Shown: piece after piece, positions 6,001 to 35,406 of the stretch | Numbering within the stretch: the first letter of the stretch is position 1 | Layout: each line of letters opens with the position of its first letter | Source of the DNA: a virus | Strand: one strand, 5' to 3' | IMG/VR virus record: IMGVR_UViG_3300030430_002680 | Location: 1 to 35,500 of that record | DNA: 35,500 nt | Translations under genes and position numbers: made by a program | Notes under the pieces: model-generated | The model's input: the letters and a program-made list of their open reading frames with translations, nothing else | Told to the model about the DNA's origin: nothing | Database searches by the model: none

Positions 6001-7716
6001 ATGACAGGAGACCTTGATGCAGGAAATAATAATGGTTGGGGTTTATATGTTGCGGCAGACGGTGATGCAAGAGTATTCCTAAACGGTTCTCATGGTATTA
6101 TCAGTTCTACAGGACAACACTATGCAGATGGTCAACTCGTTTGGAACGCAGGAAATGATGGTAGTGGATCAGGATTAGACGCTGACACTGTGGACGGTAT
6201 TCATGGGTCTTCACTTTTAAGATCAGACACCGCTGATACAGCGTCAGGAGCATTAACGCTTACAAATAACAATAATCATTTCAAAGGGCATTTATATTTT
6301 GATGAATATAGCTCCGGTAGACATTACATTCATTTCACTACAGCAGGTTCTACTAACCAAATTGATTGGCGAATACAAACTAATAATGCTAATTCGGTAG
6401 TCCATCAATGGTCAAACACCAATGCTTATTTTGCTACTCAGGTTCAAACAGCAACGCAGGGTATTCTTTGGGGTGCATCAAACGATGGCAGTGGGAGTGG
6501 ACTTGATGCTGATACCGTTGATGGTATTCAAGGTGCTAGTTTCTTACGATCAGATGCAAATGATTCTGTTACAGGCGACAAAACAACAACTCTTCAAAGA
6601 TTACAATTTAACGGTGTAGGCGGTAACTCTGGCGCCACAAATAATAGTTATGCAATTTATCAAGAAGCAGGTTCTTGGTCACACCCATACCCTGATTTAA
6701 TAATTGGCTACCATACAGGTATTAAAATGGGAGGCCACACTAGTTATGGTGGTGTTCGTTTTTATAATAATAATCCTACTAGTGGTTCAATTATAGCTTC
6801 TATCGGAGATGGCGATCAAAACTTTAGAGGCTATCATAACGGTTTTTTAAGACATGGCGGAAATACTGATCACAAAATAATGACTGTCGGAAACGATGGT
6901 TCAGGATCAGGATTTGACGCTGATACCGTTGACGGAGTTCACGCATCATCTCTTTATGGAGTAACTTCCGTTGCAACTGGCGGTGGACTTACAGGCGGCA
7001 CGATTACATCTACAGGTACAATTAGTCACGCTGATACTTCTAGTGTTTCTAATGTAAACAATAGCGGTAATACTTTTATACAAGACATTACATTTGATAC
7101 TTATGGTCACGTAACAAGCGTAACGTCTGCTACTGCAACGTCAAGTGGTGGCGGTGGAGCTAGTAGTTCTCAAACGGTTACTGCAAGGGTAAAAGCAAAT
7201 AGACTTGATTATATAGCAGCGACTAGCCCCGCAACTATATTTACAGCTACATCAGGGAAAGTAATAGTTTTAGAAGAAGCTATTTGTTTCATTGATGCTG
7301 ATGCTGTATCAGCAAGTGGGTATCCCGTGTTTGGTTATCCAATAAGAGTAAGAGTTAAATCACAATGGAACAATAGCAGCGATGCTTATATACATAGAGA
7401 TGGTGGAATGACGTTTACAAAAGAGGCATTAAATTCTTTGTTCCGATCTAACTCGCAATCTGCAAATTATTCTGCAAACATGAAAAGATTCTTAGTAGCA
7501 CAACCTCGTGATCCAACCGCTAATAACCCAGATCAGCAACAACAAATTGCAGAGGTTAATAGTAGTGATGGAACTTTTAATAGTAAAATAGAACTTACAA
7601 TGGATTCATATGTGAACACTTCTACTTCTGAAGATTATTACTTTTATTTCCAAGTGAAATTTAGAGAAGTAACTCTTAGTGATATCACTGGTGCATCTGG
7701 TATGGTAACAATTTAA
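1..7716 (+). CDS. Giant repetitive tail fibre protein (5' end missing)
   Basis: Frame 1 is open from the first base to the TAA at 7714-7716, so the gene enters from the left and at least 2571 residues lie in the window; the ATG at 1099 is only internal. The protein is Gly/Ser/Thr/Asn-rich and has hallmarks of marine phage fibres: GELALNYADGKIFYK and SGSYNDLTDVP near the left edge, a FSNDTNTGIYRGG module (about 1176), and a DLQIYHDGSDSYIKEYGTG module (about 4730). A short SSRxLxN-type strand recurs at about 2040, 2470, 2750, 3465, 4005, 4105 and 5260. A DADTVDG-type motif recurs at about 5355, 5690, 6175, 6505 and 6915. A block of roughly 80 residues at about 1496-1725 recurs diverged at about 4975-5210. 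The role is host receptor binding at the virion tail. I see no S74-type self-cleaving chaperone at the C-terminus. Confidence 0.9.
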   Translation, partial: LKNSGSSGNTPSSLVHGELALNYADGKIFYKNSSNSIVEFASGASFSGSYNDLTDVPFTYNNITGVSTNADLGIIFHTGGTALQADAHAELTFNPSSNLLKVGGDVTITGSYTADTHFKSSDGNVTLSATGGGGVYLRPDGSTSSSTQLYIQSGTGNAEFSGTISSGAITADTGGSSQNALNIGGSSATNYTLQRWLTSAHSGNEAYIIAYGASHSSEAGNFAIKNLEANSDIFFELASSVIPLRLTSTGATFAESVNVSGDLNIASTLAHTGDLDTYFQFNAANTARIVVGGSQKLVINTNGAQISNGTLTVATTSTNGILVSGNTGGLNFTGGNNRIYFGGQRALEGVTSSGNIQIGEGFSGNLLLQMATEVQGQLSVTDGSVGAPSIRFSNDTNTGIYRGGDDNFIIATGGANRVTVTSAGIFSSANLYSGTTGSYRNFAGTWAGTTGTANNGFYFLNTANSNTTKAMELSHDGNVVFAGQVQGSSLDINGGAEISGNTTITGNTSSGNAFLANRGDGGGQGLRVHNTGEVVVPTNYLYAARSSGSAFYAQGSAVFRGGITNDGGNTLSISSGSSNINFNSKNLTSVGSITSSGNLVLDATGHNYIELHSATANTRKWRFYNGQGWNQDALLIYDQDADQTAVTIETGKLGINRGASSLSHNLDVGGSVAISGTQILDSSRNLSNIGTISSGAITSSGQILTTIESSTAIKSRFIMGKAGGSTANGNLYLQYGSSDTVFIGAGSGGAGLDIAGTLKTGRTGINTASVSDVQLKIKTSTNDSTDFAIEAQSANGSALFSLDGAGEVRLAGNVKMSGTTIITSGRGLTNLTLSHGAGGTRFETNDWHRSTDNDQRFYFEASGRTFYKASSHQFRNASNATQFNINTNGHIHIASNGDSGASSTEYIKAGGVAILTSSRVLQNVSGNISMFTNDSNYATQTYVTNAISDLVDSAPSALDTLNELAAALGDDASFSTTVTNSIATKLPLAGGTLTGTLNSKAINMQNHQLYGVNNLRFNDPGVNEGIKWDGGNEWQIYESPDNQTNASGNLQFTTGSGGGTLKATLDTSGNFIARHSSGTTRIGQDGNYGNYGSLGFGGHTNGSNRIFGHYSTGDGLYLASATGRGVFIRTNGGNANNFEFTSGGDLKVAGSTFVTSGREIQNASVAASSSIAPRRRGTASVNNSGYVHAFRVDGDNLASSIRFTVHGTTGSVVINSEIFVSCNHFKDIFIESNSGFYTVLTVKVVSNGNEDFSVYLKTNSANTATVQIEVFPLNNEVITFTSTDQGFTTKTLEHTCEYGKRLSAEDNVSGRGFDIETDGQIDALKYQISGTTVIGADRSLTSINSITSGGNINTTSGGFQINGATVINSSRHINLFTSGSTGTEQINLARGGRITFYGDTNAKHSIGSRDLNGAISDDIRINTYGGLSINLDSNDNNAGNANFTIGRHGGGSSTISELMTVSGETGAINTNSTITAGSTIHRGNLTIDSQEIDVGSGDLALDVAGNITLDAGGGNIDLKEGGTTFGRLQEMIGGLGISAGSTPTFAQLISSTKTLFFGHIELGDNKHVQWGDSGGDLQIYHDGSDSYIKEYGTGALKILTNGLRVRNAADDEDMITANQNGAVNLYHDNTNVLQTMTGGVNITGELQSDSLDVDGAVDIDGNTVITGSSGTGFALEVERGDNSADVLLAYNNGVVQTPNNYLFASRSGGVSFYSQSAAVFRGGILNDQSGQALTVSDDLNITGSTSINGTQIISSSRALSNVTGNISMFTNDAGYLTSATLGSNLNADTVDSLHASSFLRSDANDTMNNTLTFGSGSGFDLATFDIYGSMRVIRNNKSGSDGMYIGYLNSNSGVTRIFGGGQGSGGIYIQGSGANDIKYNNSSTFWHAGNDGSGSGLDADTLDGYQSGYFATQGNLGNYLALSGGTMTGTITSRDLLLQSGYHLMRSNHHTGHLEGSYNNVGGNAVKSNPIYTIGSNYNPLEASLQNMYGIGFAKNSASYMTGDLDAGNNNGWGLYVAADGDARVFLNGSHGIISSTGQHYADGQLVWNAGNDGSGSGLDADTVDGIHGSSLLRSDTADTASGALTLTNNNNHFKGHLYFDEYSSGRHYIHFTTAGSTNQIDWRIQTNNANSVVHQWSNTNAYFATQVQTATQGILWGASNDGSGSGLDADTVDGIQGASFLRSDANDSVTGDKTTTLQRLQFNGVGGNSGATNNSYAIYQEAGSWSHPYPDLIIGYHTGIKMGGHTSYGGVRFYNNNPTSGSIIASIGDGDQNFRGYHNGFLRHGGNTDHKIMTVGNDGSGSGFDADTVDGVHASSLYGVTSVATGGGLTGGTITSTGTISHADTSSVSNVNNSGNTFIQDITFDTYGHVTSVTSATATSSGGGGASSSQTVTARVKANRLDYIAATSPATIFTATSGKVIVLEEAICFIDADAVSASGYPVFGYPIRVRVKSQWNNSSDAYIHRDGGMTFTKEALNSLFRSNSQSANYSANMKRFLVAQPRDPTANNPDQQQQIAEVNSSDGTFNSKIELTMDSYVNTSTSEDYYFYFQVKFREVTLSDITGASGMVTI

Positions 7717-8743: not shown

Positions 8744-10438
8744 ATGACAGGATTTAGTTTGCAAACTTTTGGCGGAAAAGCACCTAAGATTTATTCTAGG
8801 TTGTTACCGAATGATATGGCTACGGTAGCAACAAATGTGAGATTAGATACAGGTAGGCTTGAGCCGTGGAAAGGAAATGCAAGCTCGTCTATACAGGCTA
8901 CGAGTAATACTCAATTTTCTGATAATGTAAAAACAATTTTTAAACACAGCAGTAACATATGGATTGCAGTCAATCAAGTTGTTGACATACTTGAAAGTCC
9001 TATAGCTCAAGATCCACATAAAAGAATTTATTATTCTGGATATACAATATCCAGTTTCTCTAATCCACTAATGCAAGCATTAGCGCCAACGACAAATGAT
9101 GTTGCTAATGATACTTTTTATAAGTTAGGTATACCTATTGCGCCAAACTTGGCAACAACACCAACTTTAACACCTACTGTTTCATCAAATGCTTCTACAG
9201 AAACACCTTCAGCAAGGAGTTATATTTATACACTTGTTAGTGTTTATGGAGAAGAAGGGCAACCAAGTACAGCACAAACAAGCCAAATATTGAGTGTATT
9301 TTCTGATCAAACAGTGACTATCACGTTCCCTGTAGCGCCATCTGGCATGCACAATTTAGCAAAAAGAAGATTATATAGAACTGATGCGGATGGAACTTTT
9401 AGGCAAGTTGCAGACATTGATATTCCTTCTGATGAATCATCAAGTAACTTAACAACTTTTGTTGATGATAAAACTGACGCTGAATTAGGTGAGCCAAATG
9501 AAACATCTGATTTTGAGCCGCCACCTGATAGCGATGGAACTGCACACCCACAGGGTCATTTGCAAGGTTTAAAATCTATGAACAATGGCGTGTTTGCTGG
9601 ATTTGCTGGCAAAACAGTTTTATTTTCAGTTCCTTTTCAACCTCATGCGTTCCCAGAAAAGTTTCAACTTACAGTTCAGTCTCCTGTCATTGGTTTGGCT
9701 CCACTATCAAATGGTTTAATGGTATTGACTAAAGGTAAGCCTGTTTTAGTTCAAGGTACAGATCCATCATCAATGGCTATGGTAGAAATAGATTCTGCTC
9801 AAAGTTGTGTATCACGAAGAAGTATTGTTGATATGGGCGATTTCAGTGTCTATGCAAGTCCCGATGGATTAGTTTTGGCAAGTGAGTCAGGCGTTCAATT
9901 AATTACTGAACAAACATTTACAAGAGATCAATGGCAAGCACTCAACCCATCTTCTATTCATGCATATTATTGGGAAGGTCATTATGTTGGATTTTATGAA
10001 ATATCTTCCAGTGAAAAGGGTGGCTTTGTCTTTGACCCAAGGGGAGGTAAAAATTCTTTCGTTGATTTAAATTTTTATGCTGAAGCAGGATTTGCAGATT
10101 TAGAAAATGACGAGTTATATTTAATAGTAAATAATAGTTTTGTTGAGTTTGCATCAGGTTCAAATTTATCTTACACATGGAAATCAAAAGAGTTTTATAA
10201 CGCAAGACCAATCAATCCGGCTGTAGCGCAAGTAGAATGTGACAGTTATTCTCCTTCTGTGACTTTTAAATTATTTGCTGATAATTCCTTAAAACATACA
10301 CAAACCGTTACAAGTGCTGATCCATTTAAACTACCCTCAGGATATAAAGAGAACGCTTTTCATGTAGAAGTTACAGGCAGTGTTCCAATCAATCAAATAA
10401 AGGTATTTGAAAGTTCTGAGGAAATAGGTAATGGCTAG
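8744..10438 (+). CDS. Large virion-associated protein, tail region (564 aa)
   Basis: A 564-residue protein beginning MTGFSLQTFGGKAPKIYSRLLPNDMA; the GGxAPKxxxxLLP...A...N opening followed by a WKG motif (residues 39-41) is familiar from proteins encoded in the tail region of many podoviruses. The rest is strand-rich with fibronectin-like stretches (about 145-230), a proline-rich linker (about 240-260) and a possible beta-propeller segment (about 270-480) with repeated short strands and aromatic residues. It has no signal peptide or membrane segment. The ribosome binding site is weak (GGG, 6-base spacer). The last 8 bases overlap the next gene, suggesting coupled translation. A structural or tail-assembly role is inferred from neighbours; the exact function is unknown. 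Confidence 0.75.
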   Translation: MTGFSLQTFGGKAPKIYSRLLPNDMATVATNVRLDTGRLEPWKGNASSSIQATSNTQFSDNVKTIFKHSSNIWIAVNQVVDILESPIAQDPHKRIYYSGYTISSFSNPLMQALAPTTNDVANDTFYKLGIPIAPNLATTPTLTPTVSSNASTETPSARSYIYTLVSVYGEEGQPSTAQTSQILSVFSDQTVTITFPVAPSGMHNLAKRRLYRTDADGTFRQVADIDIPSDESSSNLTTFVDDKTDAELGEPNETSDFEPPPDSDGTAHPQGHLQGLKSMNNGVFAGFAGKTVLFSVPFQPHAFPEKFQLTVQSPVIGLAPLSNGLMVLTKGKPVLVQGTDPSSMAMVEIDSAQSCVSRRSIVDMGDFSVYASPDGLVLASESGVQLITEQTFTRDQWQALNPSSIHAYYWEGHYVGFYEISSSEKGGFVFDPRGGKNSFVDLNFYAEAGFADLENDELYLIVNNSFVEFASGSNLSYTWKSKEFYNARPINPAVAQVECDSYSPSVTFKLFADNSLKHTQTVTSADPFKLPSGYKENAFHVEVTGSVPINQIKVFESSEEIGNG

Positions 10439-11255
10439 ATTTATAAGCAGTCCTGTACCTATAAAATGGTCAGATCAAGAAAAAAGATTTGGATTTGCTA
10501 TAAAAGAAAGCGTTGATGTTTTATCAGGATTGCGAGGAGATCCTTTGGATAAGGCAATTACCGCTAGAGAACTTTTAAACTATGGGGTTATAAGGCTAAA
10601 AGAAGGACAGCTTTCTTATAATTTAACAACGGGCGCAAGGCAAGGAAGAGTAGAGGCTAGAACATTAAATCTTGATGAGAGTTCGTTTGAGGCTAATATA
10701 AATAATGAACTGACTCTAGCGGAAAATGCAGTTGGTGAGCAGTTATTAGTGTTCATTGAAAACACACAAACAGTTACACAGCAAACTGCATTAAGCAGTG
10801 TGTTTGAGCAATCTGAGCCTCCATTTAAGGCAACTGCGGCAGAAATAGGCGAATCAAGTGGAGTTACGTTGCCTGTTATTATGGGTCAGTTGAATAATAT
10901 AGAAATACTTAGTTCTCAAATAAAAGATGATGGTAATTATTTATTCGATTTTGGTGCAGTTGTTTCAGGCAATGCAACTAATTCAACTCAAGGAGGATCA
11001 TACGTTGCTCTTGGAGTTGAAAGAAAAGTAGCGGGTGCAGCATCATCCACTTATACGGACTTTCAATCACAAAAATCAGATGAAGTTACAAATGGGGTAA
11101 ATATTTTGGGTCAGAGAGTAGGGATCGTTAATGTTCCTTTAGCTAAAGGATTTGATTATAGATTTAAAATTTATGTTTACTTGAGAGGCGCAGGAAGTTC
11201 GGGTGCTGTTTACAACACATTTATACGAGGGTTTAGGTTAAATACAAGATCATAA
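10431..11255 (+). CDS. Virion-associated protein of the tail region (274 aa)
   Basis: A 274-residue soluble protein whose ATG lies inside the end of the upstream 564-residue gene, with GAGG in that gene's last codons serving as ribosome binding site. Its own stop overlaps the next start (TAATG). The N-terminal 60 residues are mixed helical (KWSDQEKRFGFAIKESVDVL). From about residue 150 the sequence becomes beta-rich and Gly/Ser-rich, ending in YVYLRGAGSSGAVYN-type strands, which resembles the tip or attachment domains of small fibre proteins. I do not recognise a named family. The context, between a large structural protein and a tail-chaperone-like protein, argues for a tail or fibre component. 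Confidence 0.72.
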   Translation: MARFISSPVPIKWSDQEKRFGFAIKESVDVLSGLRGDPLDKAITARELLNYGVIRLKEGQLSYNLTTGARQGRVEARTLNLDESSFEANINNELTLAENAVGEQLLVFIENTQTVTQQTALSSVFEQSEPPFKATAAEIGESSGVTLPVIMGQLNNIEILSSQIKDDGNYLFDFGAVVSGNATNSTQGGSYVALGVERKVAGAASSTYTDFQSQKSDEVTNGVNILGQRVGIVNVPLAKGFDYRFKIYVYLRGAGSSGAVYNTFIRGFRLNTRS

Positions 11256-11641
11256 TGGCTACTATATATAATAAAGATACTGGCGAAATAGTTCTTAATA
11301 TTAGCTACGAAGATGAAGCTGTGCGTAGAATGTTAAATGATGACCAAGATTTTTTGCGGGAAAATATAAATGGCTCCCTCTATAAAATAATTGATGGTAA
11401 GCCAGTAAGAAAAGAAGCGCCTCCTATTAATCATTATAAATTTGCTCAAGAATGCAGACTACCTAAACTAATTGATAGCGACTGGACGCAGATGCCTGAT
11501 AATGCTTTAGATGATGATAAAAGAAATGAATGGAAAGAATACAGGCAAAAACTTAGAGATTTTCCCGATTTAGTGTTAGCAACCTCTGACGCTAGAACAG
11601 AACAAAAAATTATGGATTTACTTCCTATTGAACCCGAATAG
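11255..11641 (+). CDS. Phage tail assembly chaperone-like protein
   Basis: A 128-residue acidic protein. The C-terminal half carries the segment CRLPKLIDSDWTQMPDNAL followed by EWKEYRQKLRDFP (about 67-104). This matches the signature of the phage tail assembly chaperone family (PF16778, Phage_tail_APC): an SDWTQLPD-like turn, then a W...YRQ.LRD.P helix. Members usually sit beside fibre or tail-tip genes and help fold or attach fibres, which fits the location here. The start overlaps the upstream stop (TAATG), so translation is likely coupled; no separate ribosome binding site is evident. The N-terminal 60 residues are not recognisable. Confidence 0.72.
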   Translation: MATIYNKDTGEIVLNISYEDEAVRRMLNDDQDFLRENINGSLYKIIDGKPVRKEAPPINHYKFAQECRLPKLIDSDWTQMPDNALDDDKRNEWKEYRQKLRDFPDLVLATSDARTEQKIMDLLPIEPE

Positions 11642-22061: not shown

Positions 22062-22480
22062 TTGTTAAAGATTACAACATTGTAATGCTATATGACTGCA
22101 CTCCATTTAGTTATTTTTGTGAACTTAATCGTGTTGTAGATGGTGATACTATAAAAATGCGTAGAATTGATTTAGGTTTTGGTGTTTCTCTTCACGACAA
22201 AACAGTTAGGATACATGGTATAGATGTTCCAGAATCTAGGATAAACCTCAAGAAATTTCCAGAAAGAGAAAAAGAAAAAGAATTAGGTTTGCTTGCTAAA
22301 GAAAGAGTTGATAAATACCTAATGAATAGTCCTATAGCAATAACATCATATGGATATGATAAGTATGGTCGCATACTAGCTAATGTTTTTTGCAATGCGG
22401 GGTCTTTATCACAACTTCTTATAGAAGATAATTTAGCAGTAGAATATGATGGTGGTAAAAAAACAAAGGTATGGACTTAA
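22058..22480 (+). CDS. Thermonuclease-like (SNase) nuclease
   Basis: A 140-residue protein with the staphylococcal nuclease fold signatures: VVDGDTI (26-32, Asp28 and Asp30 matching the calcium ligands Asp19/Asp21 of SNase), VRIHGIDVPE (50-59, with Arg51, Asp56 and Glu59 matching Arg35, Asp40 and Glu43), and YGYDKYGRILANV (98-110, Arg105 matching Arg87). All the main catalytic residues are therefore present. It would degrade DNA or RNA with calcium. No obvious signal peptide is seen, so it may act in the cytoplasm or be released at lysis. It is the last gene of the rightward structural block and its last 4 bases overlap, tail to tail, the integrase gene. Confidence 0.85.
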   Translation: MIVKDYNIVMLYDCTPFSYFCELNRVVDGDTIKMRRIDLGFGVSLHDKTVRIHGIDVPESRINLKKFPEREKEKELGLLAKERVDKYLMNSPIAITSYGYDKYGRILANVFCNAGSLSQLLIEDNLAVEYDGGKKTKVWT

Positions 22481-23364
22481 CTTATTATTGAGTCTAATCT
22501 TTCAACGATCTCTTGTTTTTTCTCTGTGTTTACGTGAGCATATCTAGTAACGCTTTGTAAGTTTTTCCATCCTCCCGCTTCTTTTATTTGAAATATATCA
22601 ACTCCATCTTTTACTAATAATGTTGCAAAAGTATGTCGCAATGTATGTGGTGTAATATTTTTTTTCACACCACTTTTATGCACAGCCTTTTTCCAACAAC
22701 TATTTCCTAAAGAATTTGGGACTAAAGGTTTACCATTATTCTGCACAAACACATATTTAATTTTGCCTTTCAAATAAGGTCTTGATTTTTCAAGATATTC
22801 TTTTCGTTCCCACATTTTTATTATAATTTGTCTAGCGGAGTTACCAATAGCAAGAACATTTGGTTCGGCATTTTTCATTTCATCACTTTTCTGAGTCCAC
22901 TCTCTAAAATCATTTGATAGAGAAGACCATTTGAGATTAATTACATTTGATTTTCTCTGACCAGTAAGGGCAAGAAACTTAACAATGTTTGATCTTAAAA
23001 AGTCTAGCTGCTTGATAAACTTTACGAGTTCATCAGGTTCAAGATATATTTGTTTGCCCTTAACTTGTTTTGTTTTTATTTTGATTGTTGTATTTGATAA
23101 ACCATTTTCTAATCCAAAGTTCATAACTGCATTGAATGTTGCTATATATCTTTGAATAGTAGAATCAGAAAGATTCTTATTAGTTTTAAGATGTTTTTTA
23201 AACTGAAAAATATCTTTCCTTGTTAAATCAGAAAAAGATTTATTTTTAAAAAAATTTGTAATGACATTGCACCTTTGAACTTCATTCGGATGCTTTACAT
23301 TTCTTTCATTTTTTGAAGGCTCTTCTAGCCAATTTTCAGCAATCTCTAAGATTGATGATTCCAT
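22477..23364 (-). CDS. int: Tyrosine recombinase/integrase
   Basis: A 295-residue phage integrase. Residues about 1-95 form the SAM-like core-binding domain, and the catalytic domain follows. The active-site set is visible: Arg137 in LALTGQRKSN, His240 and Arg243 in HTLRHTF, Trp266 in AGGWKN (the His/Trp position) and the nucleophile Tyr275 in SVTRYAHVN. It catalyses site-specific integration and probably excision, so the phage is likely temperate. GGAG lies 7 bases before the ATG. A hairpin-plus-T-run (23380-23427) lies just upstream of this site, so transcripts from upstream genes would largely stop before int. The stop overlaps the nuclease gene tail to tail, leaving no room for attP there; a site upstream of int (23365-23461) is more plausible. 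Confidence 0.93.
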   Translation of the reverse strand: MESSILEIAENWLEEPSKNERNVKHPNEVQRCNVITNFFKNKSFSDLTRKDIFQFKKHLKTNKNLSDSTIQRYIATFNAVMNFGLENGLSNTTIKIKTKQVKGKQIYLEPDELVKFIKQLDFLRSNIVKFLALTGQRKSNVINLKWSSLSNDFREWTQKSDEMKNAEPNVLAIGNSARQIIIKMWERKEYLEKSRPYLKGKIKYVFVQNNGKPLVPNSLGNSCWKKAVHKSGVKKNITPHTLRHTFATLLVKDGVDIFQIKEAGGWKNLQSVTRYAHVNTEKKQEIVERLDSIIS

Positions 23365-24164: not shown

Positions 24165-24602
24165 CTAAAATGGAATGTCATCATCAAAATCACTTACAGG
24201 ATTTTGCTTTTCTTCCACTGGTGTAGCCTTTTTTGGCTCAACTGGTGGTGGAGCTTTTTTTGGTTCAACTGGAGGCAAAGACTTCTTGTACTCTTTAAAA
24301 CTAGGAACTCCTCCACTGACCCATAAATCACCGATCTTCAACATTGGAGTTCCATCTAACTTCTTTGCAATTTTTCCTTTCCAGTTGATCCTATCTTGAT
24401 CCATTTTTAAAGAATATGACAACCACTGAATAAATTGTTCATCAATTTTGATAAAGCCATCATAGTCGTGACATTGATCGTCTGTAGCCCATGCCTGACC
24501 AGTTTCCCTCAGACCCTTAAGCCTTAATAATTCATTTTGCCTTTTCTCTTCTGTAAGTTTATACAACCTTGCATTACCCGCTTGTACTTCAAAACTACTC
24601 AT
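24165..24602 (-). CDS. Single-stranded DNA-binding protein-like
   Basis: A 145-residue protein. The last residues, DFDDDIPF, are the acidic, Phe-terminated tip found on SSB proteins, which recruits partner proteins. Before it lies a Pro/Lys-rich linker with PVEPKKA twice (about 112-130). The N-terminal 100 residues (including WLSYSLKMDQDRINWKGKIAKKL) could form a small DNA-binding domain but are not a classic OB-fold SSB by eye. Its ATG overlaps the exonuclease stop (ATGA). Operon position with a DNA-annealing protein and exonuclease supports a recombination and replication SSB. If the tip is coincidental, it is an unknown accessory protein. Confidence 0.68.
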   Translation of the reverse strand: MSSFEVQAGNARLYKLTEEKRQNELLRLKGLRETGQAWATDDQCHDYDGFIKIDEQFIQWLSYSLKMDQDRINWKGKIAKKLDGTPMLKIGDLWVSGGVPSFKEYKKSLPPVEPKKAPPPVEPKKATPVEEKQNPVSDFDDDIPF

Positions 24603-25639
24603 AAAATATCTCCATATTTAATTGAAACTTGTCTAGTTCCATTGGGTCTTCTAAAGTCTTCTATAGACTTCTCTACTTTAAGCAAAAGTTCTTCGCCATT
24701 TATTTCAGCAAAGGCTTTCTTAAAATCAATGGGCGCTTTTTTGTGTGTTACTTGTACTATTGTTTCGTGATTACCCACACTTTTACCATATTTATCAGCT
24801 ATAAGATTCTTAAGTTCATTTGATTTTTTTTCTAAATCAGAAAGTTCATCAAACATATCTATGTTATCTAATTTTATATCGGCAATTCTTCTTTGAAGTT
24901 TTGTCAACCTAACTATAGCATCATCGTCTTCTACGTAGTCATAATCTCTAGCTGTTTTTTTTGCGCCTAAATACTTTTTTCTTTTTTCAGGATCACTGTA
25001 CTCTTCCTGAATATAATCATAGACACTTCTCCAAAGGTCAATTCTTTCAATCAATCCTTCTTTTGGTACAGGTAAATGTCTTGCAGAAACTTTTTCATAC
25101 AACCAATTATCTGTTCTTTCTATGGTTTCAAGGATTACTTGCGGGTCGTCAGAAGGTTTATTGACTTTGTAGCAAAGAAAATACATTCTTTCCAAATCAG
25201 CAACTTCCATTATTGTCCGGCACTGCATTTCATAATATTCTTTTTCAAAGACAGAATAAGGTTCTTTTGCATAGAACGGACACTTGATTTCTATACCCGC
25301 ATCAACACCAACTAAACCATCAGGTGATGCCGCAAGAAATGGATATTTATCATGCACTATTAGACCAGTTTCAAATACTTTCTTTCCTGTCCTCTCTTCA
25401 AAATATTTTCTTGCATAAGGCTCAAGTTTTGTTCCATGTTCAACCGCTTCATTTGTAACAAACTCGTCCTCGGCCTCTGATAATGCTCTTACTTTTTTTC
25501 TGACAAGATCATCGAATGATTCAAATTGATTTTTTCTTTCGATGACTGATGTTTCGGTTGCTGTAATTTTAGAGGCTCTAACTTTACGCCATTCAATACT
25601 GCCTTGCTCTAGTCCGGCAAAAGGTTGTGTATCAACCAT
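24599..25639 (-). CDS. YqaJ-type (lambda exonuclease-like) 5'-3' exonuclease
   Basis: A 346-residue PDDEXK nuclease. The family opening QGSIEWRKVRASKITATE (12-29), Glu73 in GTKLEPYA, Asp107 in AASPDGLV, Glu117-x-Lys119 in GIEIKCP and Gln139 in YYEMQCRTIMEV are all visible, which gives a complete active site. It should digest one strand of duplex DNA ends to expose single strands for the annealing protein encoded just upstream (start overlaps that stop, TAATG). The C-terminal 130 residues are coiled-coil-like (KLQRRIADIKL...). It is longer than lambda exonuclease (226 residues), as YqaJ-type proteins of marine phages often are. Confidence 0.88.
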   Translation of the reverse strand: MVDTQPFAGLEQGSIEWRKVRASKITATETSVIERKNQFESFDDLVRKKVRALSEAEDEFVTNEAVEHGTKLEPYARKYFEERTGKKVFETGLIVHDKYPFLAASPDGLVGVDAGIEIKCPFYAKEPYSVFEKEYYEMQCRTIMEVADLERMYFLCYKVNKPSDDPQVILETIERTDNWLYEKVSARHLPVPKEGLIERIDLWRSVYDYIQEEYSDPEKRKKYLGAKKTARDYDYVEDDDAIVRLTKLQRRIADIKLDNIDMFDELSDLEKKSNELKNLIADKYGKSVGNHETIVQVTHKKAPIDFKKAFAEINGEELLLKVEKSIEDFRRPNGTRQVSIKYGDIL

Positions 25640-27166: not shown

Positions 27167-28990
27167 ATGGACGTTAAAGAAATAAAACTGAGGTTAGCGC
27201 CTCATGTATCAACATTACTAAGGGAGTTTTATCCTGAGGGAAAAATAGAGGGCGGTAATTTTAAAATAGGATCTGTTCAGGGCGAAAAAGGTAGAAGTAT
27301 GTCAGTCTTTTTGGGTGGTGATCAGGTAGGTCAATGGGTTGATTTTGCTACGGGTGAAACTGGAGATATGCTTGATTTAATATGCTCAAAAGAATCATTG
27401 TCTATTGTTGAAGCAATGAACTGGGTAAAAAAACGATTTGGTCTTACAGAAAAAGTTCAGAAAAAAATTAAAAATATCGCGGGTAAAAAATACAACACCC
27501 CCATTCTACCTTCTCAAGACACAGAAATGATACATGATTATTTGAAAGGTAGAGCCTTCAAGAATACAGATGATGTATTAAAAAACTCTGGTATATATGA
27601 AACAAAACTAGATGCATTAGATAGGGCAGTTGTTTTCCCCTACTACTCAGCTGACAATCAGCTTACCTTCATCAAAATAAAGCCTATTACTGGGGAGGCA
27701 TCACCGTTTACTCAAAAAGCATTGAAGCCTATCTTATTTGGATGGAAAACTATAGACGATAGAGCGAGAGATTTAATGATTGTAGAGGGTGAGTTTGATC
27801 AGGTGATGGCAAATGAGTTAGGTTTCAACGCATTGAGTGTACCTATGGGCGCACAAAATCTTAACTGGATTGAACATGAGATGCCTAACTTAGAAAGGTT
27901 TGACCGCATTCTCATTTGTTCTGATATGGATGAAGCCGGAGATGATATGTGGAGAAAGGTAAGCAAGAGATTAGGTGATAAATGTTACCGAATTGAAATA
28001 CCTTGCAAAGATATCAATGACCTTGTGAAAAAACATGGATATGAGAAAAGCAAAATTATCATTGATCAAGCAATAGAATCAGCTATCTACAAAGACCCAC
28101 CGACTCTGAGAAACATAAGTGAATTCAAAGAAGAGATTGATCAATACTTTGCATTTGATGAAAAGGACAAGAACGGTTTTGGTTTTGGATGGACTAAATT
28201 AGATGAGGAAGATATAACACTTAGAACGCATGAACTTGTTACTGTAAGTGGCGCTAACGGTCATGGTAAGTCTATGTGGTTATCTCAAGTTTGTTTGAAC
28301 GCAATACATCAAGGCCAAAAAGTTTTAGTTGGATCGTTTGAAATGATACCTAGTCAGACAGCGGGGAGGATGATGAAACAAGCAGCTGGAGTCTTCAATC
28401 CAACGCCAGAATATAGAGATGCTTTGCTTGATTGGTTGCTACCTAACTTTTGGTTGTATGTAGATACATTAACACCAAAGCCAAAGGATTTATTAGAATG
28501 TTTTGAGTATGCCTACAGACGTTATGGTATAAACGTCTTTGTTGTAGATTCGTTGACAAATATAGTTAGACAAGATGACTATGGGGCGCAACAAGAATTT
28601 ATAGAATCATTAGTCCAGTTCAAACTGAACTTCCCTGTTACGGTATTTTTAGTAACGCATGTTCGCAAAGGAGAAACAGAGAACTCAAGAACTGGCAAGT
28701 ATGATGTAAAGGGTAGTGGGTCAATCACTGATTTAGCTGACAGTTGTATTTCTGTTTGGAAAAACAAAAAAAAATTAGAACATATACAATACCAGAGTAT
28801 GTTGGGTGAAGAGCCTGATCCTGATGTACTTAACCAATGGGATATATATATTGGTGTAATGAAAAATAGGGCTGGTCAATTTGAAGGATCAGTAGGATTT
28901 GAATTTAAACCTGACTGTTTTCAGTACGTGCAATCTCGTGGTGAACCTGTCAGAAAATACATAGAGTTTGATATCAACCATGCAAGATAA
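27167..28990 (+). CDS. Fused DNA primase-helicase, T7 gp4-like
   Basis: A 607-residue bifunctional replication protein. The N-terminal 100 residues have the primase-type segment ATGETGDMLDLI (61-72) but only one Cys (Cys73), so the usual zinc-binding Cys set is missing. The TOPRIM domain has MIVEGEFD (Glu207) and ICSDMDEAGDD (Asp253, Asp255). The DnaB-like helicase domain has Walker A GANGHGKS (362-369), the catalytic-type Glu392 in GSFEM, Walker B VFVVD (Asp461) and LVTHVRKG. It should unwind DNA at the fork and prime the lagging strand. It follows the initiator-like gene by one base, and no DNA polymerase is visible in the window. Confidence 0.9.
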   Translation: MDVKEIKLRLAPHVSTLLREFYPEGKIEGGNFKIGSVQGEKGRSMSVFLGGDQVGQWVDFATGETGDMLDLICSKESLSIVEAMNWVKKRFGLTEKVQKKIKNIAGKKYNTPILPSQDTEMIHDYLKGRAFKNTDDVLKNSGIYETKLDALDRAVVFPYYSADNQLTFIKIKPITGEASPFTQKALKPILFGWKTIDDRARDLMIVEGEFDQVMANELGFNALSVPMGAQNLNWIEHEMPNLERFDRILICSDMDEAGDDMWRKVSKRLGDKCYRIEIPCKDINDLVKKHGYEKSKIIIDQAIESAIYKDPPTLRNISEFKEEIDQYFAFDEKDKNGFGFGWTKLDEEDITLRTHELVTVSGANGHGKSMWLSQVCLNAIHQGQKVLVGSFEMIPSQTAGRMMKQAAGVFNPTPEYRDALLDWLLPNFWLYVDTLTPKPKDLLECFEYAYRRYGINVFVVDSLTNIVRQDDYGAQQEFIESLVQFKLNFPVTVFLVTHVRKGETENSRTGKYDVKGSGSITDLADSCISVWKNKKKLEHIQYQSMLGEEPDPDVLNQWDIYIGVMKNRAGQFEGSVGFEFKPDCFQYVQSRGEPVRKYIEFDINHAR

Positions 28991-32063: not shown

Positions 32064-32147
32064 CCTCCTCAGGATTTTAGTTTAGTGTCGGAATTAACAC
32101 TAAAGAACCACCTCAAAAACTCGTGCTCGATTTGATATTCGAGGTGG
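32064..32147 (-). promoter_or_regulatory. Structured 5' leader of the 31759-32058 gene
   Basis: On the minus strand: a 7-bp outer stem CCACCTC/GAGGTGG (32141-32147 with 32108-32114) around a 26-base loop holding the 16-base repeat, then 3 bases, then an 8-bp perfect hairpin TTTAGTGT/ACACTAAA (32081-32104), then CCTGAGGAGG (32064-32073) and the ATG. The loop can also form CTCGA/TCGAG, giving a competing fold. Within it a start-less frame spells EYQIEHEFLRWFF, echoing VEHEFL of the gene at 30997, so a decayed gene end is also possible. Confidence 0.5.
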
Positions 32148-32161
32148 CTCTATGGTGTTTA

Positions 32162-33993: not shown

Positions 33994-34320
33994 TTAATAC
34001 CCCCACTTTATTGAACTTGGGCTATCTCCGGCTCTCCACCTCTCGCCATCTTCAGTTGGTAAATAACCAAATCTTTCAACTCTTCTAGCTTTCGCCATAT
34101 AAAATATGAATTTTCCCTTAGCTTCAGATGCTGATAACTCGCCATCTTCATAGAGGGATTCATCACATAAATAACCGTTTAAATCGTTATAAATTTGATC
34201 AGCTTCCTCCTGACTGCTTGGTGAAATTTCATGCTCTCTTAAAGAATACATTCCTTTTGAGTCTCTATATGTGTAATAAATGGAATCACCACTTATTATT
34301 TTTGCTTTTTTTCTACTCAT
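33994..34320 (-). CDS. Unknown protein (108 aa)
   Basis: The start is placed at the ATG at 34320, 5 bases after CCTGAGGAGG, rather than further upstream at 34428: the longer frame would translate the structured leader. The 108-residue product (MSRKKAKIISGDSIYYTYRD start) is mixed helix and strand with an acidic middle and a C-terminal GYLPTEDGERWRAGDSPSSIKW. No family recognised. Confidence 0.65.
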   Translation of the reverse strand: MSRKKAKIISGDSIYYTYRDSKGMYSLREHEISPSSQEEADQIYNDLNGYLCDESLYEDGELSASEAKGKFIFYMAKARRVERFGYLPTEDGERWRAGDSPSSIKWGY

Positions 34321-34325
34321 GTTTA

Positions 34326-34399
34326 CCTCCTCAGGTAATAGTTTATTTAGGTCTAGCGACTCCCCAGAGTAGGGGAGTTTCGGACATTCCTCAATGTCC
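34326..34399 (-). promoter_or_regulatory. Tandem-hairpin 5' leader A (before the 33994-34320 gene)
   Basis: On the minus strand: a 7-bp hairpin GGACATT-GAGG-AATGTCC (34382-34399), 3 bases GAA, a 7-bp hairpin ACTCCCC-TACTCT-GGGGAGT (34359-34378), 23 bases, then CCTGAGGAGG (34326-34335) and the ATG. The layout matches leader B at 35017-35086. Confidence 0.6.
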
Positions 34400-34412
34400 A
34401 TCATCAGGCTAG

Positions 34413-34580
34413 TTATGAATTCAACCATTCGTCAAAAGTTTTTAATGGTTCACCTGTCAATTCACAGTGACCAGTGCCATCATCTGAACACGATAAATAA
34501 ATTTCGTACTCATCTTCTAGCCTTCCGCGTTTTCTGGTTTGACTCTCTGCGTGTTCTATTAACATTCGTTCAAGGCTCAT
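34413..34580 (-). CDS. Small unknown protein (55 aa)
   Basis: A 55-residue frame starting MSLERMLIEHAESQTRKRGR, with GGAGG 8 bases before the ATG (GAGGAGGTGCTGTG then ATG). It overlaps the upstream stop as TGATG. The C-terminal half (CSDDGTGHCELTGEPLKTFDEW) has two Cys and reads like a small zinc-less domain. Function unknown; the tight coupling supports it. Confidence 0.62.
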   Translation of the reverse strand: MSLERMLIEHAESQTRKRGRLEDEYEIYLSCSDDGTGHCELTGEPLKTFDEWLNS

Positions 34581-35008
34581 CACAGCACCTCCTCTTTATT
34601 AAAGTTATTGATTAGTTCATCTGATAAATCAAATGGCTTTTGATTTGCTAAAAGAATCTCTCTTACAAGATTATCTTGATCGTGTTTTTGTTGCTCTTTA
34701 CCCGTAAAAAATTCACGATCAATAATCTCAAAGTTTTCCACCCAGTAGACACCGTTATTAAAGTTATCTGCATCAAGTGTGCTATATGTACCGACACCGA
34801 CTGAAAGAATACCTCCCATCCAGTTCCCGATCATTTGAGCGACTCTAGCGCAACAGTATGAAGAATCTTCTCTAATGCCTATGATCTTTGCGGCTTTCAA
34901 AAATGCTTCTACTGAGTCTCTGCCTCCGTTCCAGTGTAGATAAATGGACGGTGAATCTTCTTTGTTTATATATTCATCTTTAAATGATATTACTGCTCTA
35001 TTTCCCAT
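34580..35008 (-). CDS. Conserved hypothetical protein with SIYLHWNGGRDSVEAFL motif (142 aa)
   Basis: A 142-residue protein starting MGNRAVISFKDEYI, preceded by CCTGAGGAGG with an 8-base spacer. The segments PSIYLHWNGGRDSVEAFLKAAK (about 19-41), ARVAQMIGNWMGGILSVGVGTYSTLDADNFNNG (about 54-86) and IIDREFFTG match a small family I recall from phages, plasmids and gut bacteria, whose function is not established. The strong pattern suggests a conserved fold with a catalytic or ligand-binding role. It is separated from the upstream gene by leader B. Confidence 0.72.
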   Translation of the reverse strand: MGNRAVISFKDEYINKEDSPSIYLHWNGGRDSVEAFLKAAKIIGIREDSSYCCARVAQMIGNWMGGILSVGVGTYSTLDADNFNNGVYWVENFEIIDREFFTGKEQQKHDQDNLVREILLANQKPFDLSDELINNFNKEEVL

Positions 35009-35016
35009 TTTATTTA

Positions 35017-35086
35017 CCTCCTCAGGTTGTTAAGTTTATGGGTCTTACTAGCCCCTTTCGGGGCTTTCGATTACTCCCCAGTAATC
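35017..35086 (-). promoter_or_regulatory. Tandem-hairpin 5' leader B (before the 34580-35008 gene)
   Basis: On the minus strand: a 7-bp hairpin GATTACT-GGGG-AGTAATC (35069-35086) spanning the upstream gene's stop, 3 bases GAA, a 6-bp hairpin AGCCCC-GAAA-GGGGCT (35050-35065) with a GNRA loop, 23 bases, then CCTGAGGAGG (35017-35026) and the ATG. No T-run follows, so it is not a classical terminator. Confidence 0.6.
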
Positions 35087-35406
35087 TCGTCAGGTAAGTT
35101 TAAATATCCTTTACTTTGTCTCAAATATTCAGAGTTTGACGCAAAGTTTTCAAAGTAATTTTGAATGCTTGAAAATGTGCAACCTCTCTCAAAATGCTTG
35201 AAGCAATTCTTTGATTTTAAATAATCATTGATTGCATTGTGAGCATCGTCCAAATGTTTCTCAGCTTGATATAATTCTGGGTCATTTCTAAACTGCTCCA
35301 TCTGACCCGAAACAAAGTAGATTGCATCATAAAGGGTTATCAAGTGATCTGCTTTTCTTTGATCAATTTTTAAAGGAAATCCGGCAAGTTTGATCTTGTT
35401 ATCCAT
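35071..35406 (-). CDS. Unknown helical protein (111 aa)
   Basis: The ATG at 35406 with GGGAGG 7 bases upstream is preferred to the in-frame GTG at 35409. The 111-residue product is helical, with a heptad-like middle (DPELYQAEKHLDDAHNAINDYL) and a Cys at about residues 82 and 90 (NCFKHFERGCTF). Its last codons form part of leader B's first hairpin. Function unknown. Confidence 0.62.
   Translation of the reverse strand: MDNKIKLAGFPLKIDQRKADHLITLYDAIYFVSGQMEQFRNDPELYQAEKHLDDAHNAINDYLKSKNCFKHFERGCTFSSIQNYFENFASNSEYLRQSKGYLNLPDEITGE

Follow-up and report, generated by a model that had tools for sequence, protein, structure and literature searches.

All three topologies of the hammerhead ribozyme have been reported from phages (PMC7761336). 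Hammerheads flanking small genes without known function have also been described, and their role in phages has been called an open question (PMC6155905). The closest described system is found in prophages, where, in the survey by Perreault et al., clustered hammerheads flank single small genes and cutting into gene-length mRNAs was proposed (PMC3088659). Native polycistronic fragments carrying tandem ribozymes cut themselves in vitro, and one set did so in E. coli, in the same survey (PMC3088659). Here we describe two leaders, A and B, near one end of a 35.5-kb virus record (the window, 35,500 nucleotides in all). We place a probability of about 0.9 on the reading that both belong to the type I hammerhead ribozymes, are encoded on the minus strand and lie between neighboring genes of an uncultivated phage, with the splitting of a polycistronic mRNA by putative self-cleavage as the best explanation for their presence. 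Ribozymes of this kind are already known and the two leaders are new members; our comparison covers the open-licence literature, and an earlier description of this exact subfamily is possible.

The resemblance to the prophage clusters includes the occurrence of several hammerheads at small phage genes, a pseudoknot between stem I and stem II, and a link to anti-restriction, through ardA there and ArdC in a related contig here. In contrast to those clusters (PMC3088659), the ribozymes described below come from uncultivated virus contigs, are packed regularly between stop codon, Shine-Dalgarno site and AUG, and form arrays of six to nine at successive gene borders, a density that exceeds the published examples compared.

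Hammerhead core of the two leaders

The genes at this end of the window are on the minus strand. An earlier note on this DNA had picked out in each leader a 7-bp stem with a GAGG or GGGG loop, a GAA, a C/G hairpin, AGACC, CCUGAGGAGG and an ATG, and every one of these parts is present on that strand. The plus strand folds into the same two hairpins, but because the genes lie on the minus strand it is not the RNA in question. The hairpins are where the note had put them, but the starts it gave to the elements, 34399 and 35086, were too late, and the real starts are 34412 in A and 35098 in B (Table 1). Upstream of the first hairpin of A the minus strand reads CUAGC-CUGAUGA(U), with C-GCUAG-ACC just 3' of the second hairpin; in B the corresponding bases are CUUAC-CUGACGA and A-GUAAG-ACC. 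CUAGC pairs with GCUAG and CUUAC with GUAAG, forming stem I. The succession of CUGANGA, stem II, GAA, a stem III whose first base is A15.1 and last base U16.1, H17 and stem I identifies a type I hammerhead, and it went unrecognized at first because the reading had begun a few bases too late. What had been put forward as a candidate structured RNA family, perhaps a switch, is, on the evidence of its core and three stems, a hammerhead and not evidently a switch. The purine-loop hairpin corresponds to stem II and the C/G hairpin to stem III; the GAA between them belongs to the catalytic core, and AGACC comprises the end of the stem I 3' strand together with a loop that pairs with the loop of stem II.

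Table 1. Parts of ribozymes A and B and the adjoining genes, in window positions.
Feature	Positions	Strand	Basis or remark
A, stem I 5' strand CUAGC	34408-34412	-	sequence, fold, family covariation
A, conserved core CUGAUGA (C3-A9)	34401-34407	-	sequence, strict scan
A, extra U between A9 and stem II	34400	-	recurs in about half of close relatives
A, stem II GGACAUU/AAUGUCC, loop GAGG (34389-34392)	34382-34399	-	fold, covariation
A, core GAA (G12-A14)	34379-34381	-	sequence
A, stem III ACUCCCC/GGGGAGU, loop UACUCU	34359-34378	-	fold, covariation
A, C17; predicted cleavage between 34358 and 34357	34358	-	homology with hammerhead core
A, stem I 3' strand GCUAG (34353-34357) and ACCU (34349-34352)	34349-34357	-	sequence, covariation; CCU pairs with AGG of loop II
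Gene A Shine-Dalgarno site CCUGAGGAGG, within small hairpin UUACCU-GAGG-AGGUAA	34327-34336	-	
Gene A, 108 aa, AUG at 34320	33994-34320	-	
55-aa gene ending at ribozyme A	34413-34580	-	stop TAA at 34413-34415
B, stem I 5' strand CUUAC	35094-35098	-	sequence, fold, covariation
B, conserved core CUGACGA	35087-35093	-	sequence, strict scan
B, stem II GAUUACU/AGUAAUC, loop GGGG	35069-35086	-	fold, covariation
B, core GAA	35066-35068	-	sequence
B, stem III AGCCCC/GGGGCU, loop GAAA	35050-35065	-	fold, covariation
B, A17; predicted cleavage between 35049 and 35048	35049	-	homology
B, stem I 3' strand GUAAG (35044-35048) and ACCC (35040-35043)	35040-35048	-	sequence, covariation; CCC pairs with GGG of loop II
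142-aa gene led by ribozyme B	34580-35008	-	at least 165 viral relatives, few ribozyme-preceded
111-aa gene, last codons (..LPDEITGE-stop) within 5' half of ribozyme B	35071-35406	-	

The hammerhead core (C3 U4 G5 A6 N7 G8 A9, G12 A13 A14, A15.1-U16.1 and H17, as listed in PMC3088659) is complete in both copies, with C at H17 in A and A in B. Minimum free energy folding and pair counts arrange three stems around this core in both copies, stem I being open-ended. The completed sequences fold into the three-way hammerhead junction at -27.4 kcal/mol (z -4.6) for A and -21.9 kcal/mol (z -3.9) for B, and 0/200 shuffles were as stable in either case. Pairing directly adjoining the core is uninterrupted in B, while A has a single additional U separating A9 from stem II. 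On the minus strand no U run follows either hairpin, which speaks against an intrinsic terminator and agrees with the earlier note that these are not plain terminators.

With the type I hammerhead of Rfam (RF00163, Hammerhead_1), the leaders share the CUGANGA/GAA/A15.1-U16.1/H17 core, the three stems and the open stem I; they differ from it in their long stem II, in a short Watson-Crick pseudoknot between loop I and loop II and, in A, in the base inserted after A9. At its curated cut-offs Rfam detected the family neither in the window nor in any related locus searched, and 34/34 close copies score below the cut-off. As a threshold set by the curators of a library, that cut-off does not define the ribozyme biochemically or structurally, and the identity of the elements rests on the core and stems. 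Since the family falls below the thresholds of a standard library, virus metagenomes probably contain more such elements than their annotation shows. Two other sub-threshold matches were rejected. The type II hammerhead model (RF02276; 20.5 bits against a cut-off of 37) fits leader A in the wrong register, in which CUGAGGA, from the ribosome site, stands in for the core and the real CUGAUGA is left out, and a CRISPR-repeat match on the plus strand (29.3 bits against a cut-off of 42) comes from the opposite strand of stem III in copy B.

A covarying family with a loop-loop pseudoknot

Over 707 kb, a strict scan for the core and three stems matched A, B and copies in related phages and nothing else; a reversed control of about 700 kb gave 0 matches. 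Two matches to a loose three-word pattern were reached in 2/100 shuffles, and this pattern alone would not settle the identity. A covariance model (R1) built from A, B and one close relative recovered copies in independent virus contigs absent from the model, among them L030 at 1e-14 and L096 at 3.5e-11. The search yielded 34 close copies, all of them in uncultivated virus contigs, so the further copies in related phages that the earlier note had proposed to search for do exist. All virus contigs and a collection of bacterial genomes were also searched with a sequence pattern derived from the model matches. A structural filter then left 43 ribozymes in 36/76 pattern-picked virus loci and one in the reversed control; among the matches listed, 0/80 loci from bacterial genomes passed. 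Catalogued phages showed no DNA similarity to the leader region or to the leader of one relative.

The claim of a structured RNA family with real covariation is upheld by the 34 homologues, in which 99.3% of cells are paired and 20/22 pairs have both-sided changes. Covariation scores 0.587, compared with 0.165 after shuffling and 0.060-0.093 for slid partners. The alignment was fitted to the structure of the model and leans towards it, yet sliding the partners by a single base drops the pairing to about 40%. Essentially all 34 homologues retain the hammerhead core, and stem III is paired in 100% of cells.

The purine loop of stem II pairs with the pyrimidines directly after stem I, as GAGG/ACCU in A, GGGG/ACCC in B and GGGA/AUCC in L096. 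The triplets of this pseudoknot, AGG/CCU in A and GGG/CCC in B, are assigned from base-pairing and not from three-dimensional evidence. All three loop I-loop II pairs are formed in 34/34 sequences, and at two of the three A-U replaces G-C on both sides. A pseudoknot involving the purine loop had thus been correctly suspected, but its covarying partner is ACC(C/U) after stem I and not the C-run of the second hairpin, which is used fully in stem III. The pseudoknot also accounts for the matching position of AGACC in the two leaders. In a second subfamily (L085, L138, L172 and the G010 contig) the same principle can be seen by eye, with loop pairings UAGU/ACUA and UGGU/ACCA. In a related hammerhead, Perreault et al. 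showed that rapid cleavage depends on such a pseudoknot (PMC3088659).

The extra U after A9 occurs in about half of the 34 relatives alongside quite different stem II sequences, which argues that it is inherited and tolerated and is not a mutation of copy A. The filter of the 2011 survey required an intact core and pairing adjoining it, and some core insertions lowered activity; the insertions named in its text lie after A6, within GAAA and near C3, with none after A9 there (PMC3088659). By analogy, copy A may cleave more slowly on account of its extra U.

The gene-border slot and its possible role

The ribozymes occupy one slot, in the order stop codon, ribozyme, Shine-Dalgarno site, start codon. 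The stop of the upstream frame lies between -24 and +20 bases from C3 in 48/49 copies, most commonly 8-9 bases before C3 and directly ahead of stem I (26/49), and the distance from C3 to the start codon of the next gene is 55-93 bases, with a Shine-Dalgarno-like site in nearly every case. In B, CCUGAGGAGG lies between the AGACC region and the AUG at 35008. This ribozyme contains the last eight codons and stop of the upstream 111-aa gene, whose TAA (35071-35073) falls in the stem II 3' strand. Because the predicted cut site is beyond this stop, cutting would leave the reading frame undamaged. A single open reading frame (34428-33994) spans ribozyme A into gene A, and it is open in L085 too; an N-terminal extension of gene A is not favored, as the Shine-Dalgarno site belongs to the inner start. 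The gene A protein has no Pfam or PHROG match, and its relative in L090 is 92% identical.

The proteins encoded downstream of the ribozymes fall into 32 clusters with no common pathway, and most relatives of the 142-aa gene lack a ribozyme, which together indicate that the element belongs to the gene border rather than to a pathway. It is also not essential to the downstream genes, since most of their relatives do without it. Gene-specific control was rejected, the ribozyme preceding only a few relatives of the 142-aa gene.

The densest array is in L138 (11.2 kb), where the strict scan found eight ribozymes and inspection a ninth, with CCGA in its core; they precede 9/13 small genes in a row. 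Six ribozymes were found in the G003 contig and seven in the G010 contig. Another self-cleaving RNA takes the same place in one phage: in L151, a twister-P5 ribozyme (RF02684; 4400-4452, 59 bits against the Rfam cut-off of 37.6) sits between a stop codon and the Shine-Dalgarno site of the next gene, and hammerheads occupy two further gene borders downstream of it. Twister-P5 is likewise a self-cleaving class in an intercistronic slot, but its fold differs, and none was found in the window. In L194 (four copies) and L151, the stem I 3' strand is GGGAG, lies about 9-13 bases before the AUG and is paired with CUCCC; this GGGAG is likely the Shine-Dalgarno site, which cutting would free. Dense arrays of near-identical ribozymes, each at a different gene and with fixed spacing to stop and start, would make the role of hammerheads in phages testable.

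For this role, cleavage, the chemical ends and any effect on expression are extrapolated from hammerhead biochemistry. During transcription, CUGANGA, GAA and stems I-III would fold, and loop II would dock on the internal loop of stem I through the three-base-pair pseudoknot. The RNA would then cut itself after C17 in A or A17 in B, as the biochemistry of the class predicts. The upstream message would terminate in the stem III hairpin and bear a 2',3'-cyclic phosphate; the downstream message, with its own Shine-Dalgarno site, would start at a 5'-hydroxyl some 37-40 bases ahead of the AUG. Most probably, a polycistronic phage mRNA would be divided into one- or two-gene mRNAs, with altered stability and with translation of neighboring genes uncoupled.

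A different benefit may have been selected if the ribozymes are chiefly the borders of portable gene cassettes, that is, recombination sites between unrelated small genes at which an inserted gene would be independent of its neighbors' transcript. We regard this as possible but doubtful; it is compatible with mRNA cutting and differs in that the benefit would be gene gain and loss. A 698-bp stretch (34417-35114, minus strand) comprising ribozyme B and two genes, with one end only a few bases from ribozyme A, is missing from L085, whose flanks are 94% identical. Near-identical ribozymes precede proteins of 32 clusters, ribozyme-led genes are ordered differently in L138 and L172, and in these two contigs different ribozyme subfamilies lead the ArdC gene. 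These few examples suggest gene gain or loss at ribozyme borders. However, the L085 case is a single clean insertion or deletion, no recombination junction was mapped inside a ribozyme, and any shared leader would give short similar sequences at gene borders. Less probable again, and in our view unlikely, is a translation switch in which cutting exposes the Shine-Dalgarno site or upstream translation holds the ribozyme open and uncut. This fits L194 and L151, where GGGAG would stay paired with CUCCC until cutting, better than it fits the window, where the Shine-Dalgarno site is outside the ribozyme in its own small hairpin, not obviously changed by cutting. A ribosome terminating at the stop inside stem II of B would disturb the fold, but in 26/49 copies the upstream stop is 8-9 bases before C3.

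Decay of the ribozymes into remnants without present function might be suspected from the core insertion in copy A; compensatory changes throughout the family, the recurrence of the A-type insertion with different stem II sequences and the undeviating core of copy B make this very improbable. The absence of Rfam hits in the window at the library's cut-offs could even point to a structured leader of a new type, or a metabolite switch merely resembling two hairpins. The near-universal hammerhead core, the fully paired stem III and the lack of a common pathway downstream leave that reading scarcely credible. Returning to hammerheads that divide a message, we offer a wider proposal tentatively, as one that may well prove wrong: a phage-specific subfamily tolerating a base after A9 would serve as a standard stop-ribozyme-Shine-Dalgarno-start part, making each small gene of a variable region an exchangeable mRNA unit, with other self-cleaving classes able to substitute and, in some phages, a ribosome site in stem I switched on by cutting.

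Other leaders and genes nearby

The ribozyme-led gene at 8905-9774 in L138 encodes an ArdC-type anti-restriction protein (ArdcN and zincin domains), which echoes the ardA association reported in 2011 (PMC3088659). Within the window, minus-strand genes encode an integrase (22477-23364) and a RecE-like exonuclease (24599-25639), from which the phage may be temperate; a primase-helicase (27167-28990) and an internal virion protein (8744-10438) are also encoded.

The ribosome site CUGAGGAG recurs in a small hairpin with a GAGG loop at 34334, 35025, 32927 and 32072 of the window (minus strand) and in L085, L134, L138 and L172. The outer pairs of this hairpin change together between genes (UUACCU/AGGUAA, AAUCU/AGAUU, AACCU/AGGUU), ribozyme-free genes included. 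At about 32075-32155 of the window (minus strand), and at about 2530-2611 and 3630-3721 of L085, two successive hairpins without a hammerhead core precede the Shine-Dalgarno hairpin; this leader is possibly a terminator or another intercistronic element. The otherwise hammerhead-led array of L138 contains two near-identical leaders (about 9810-9870 and 10330-10390) with a nested hairpin, AAAGTAACTACCACAAAGCYCTTTT..AGGGCTTTTTAGTATTTATTTTT. A long paired leader of the form GAGTTGRTTTGAT..hairpin..AAATCAATTC-like occurs in L138 (about 6393-6450) and L172 (about 11245-11310, minus strand); its inner stem is changed between the two and still paired, and we consider it a candidate second RNA family.
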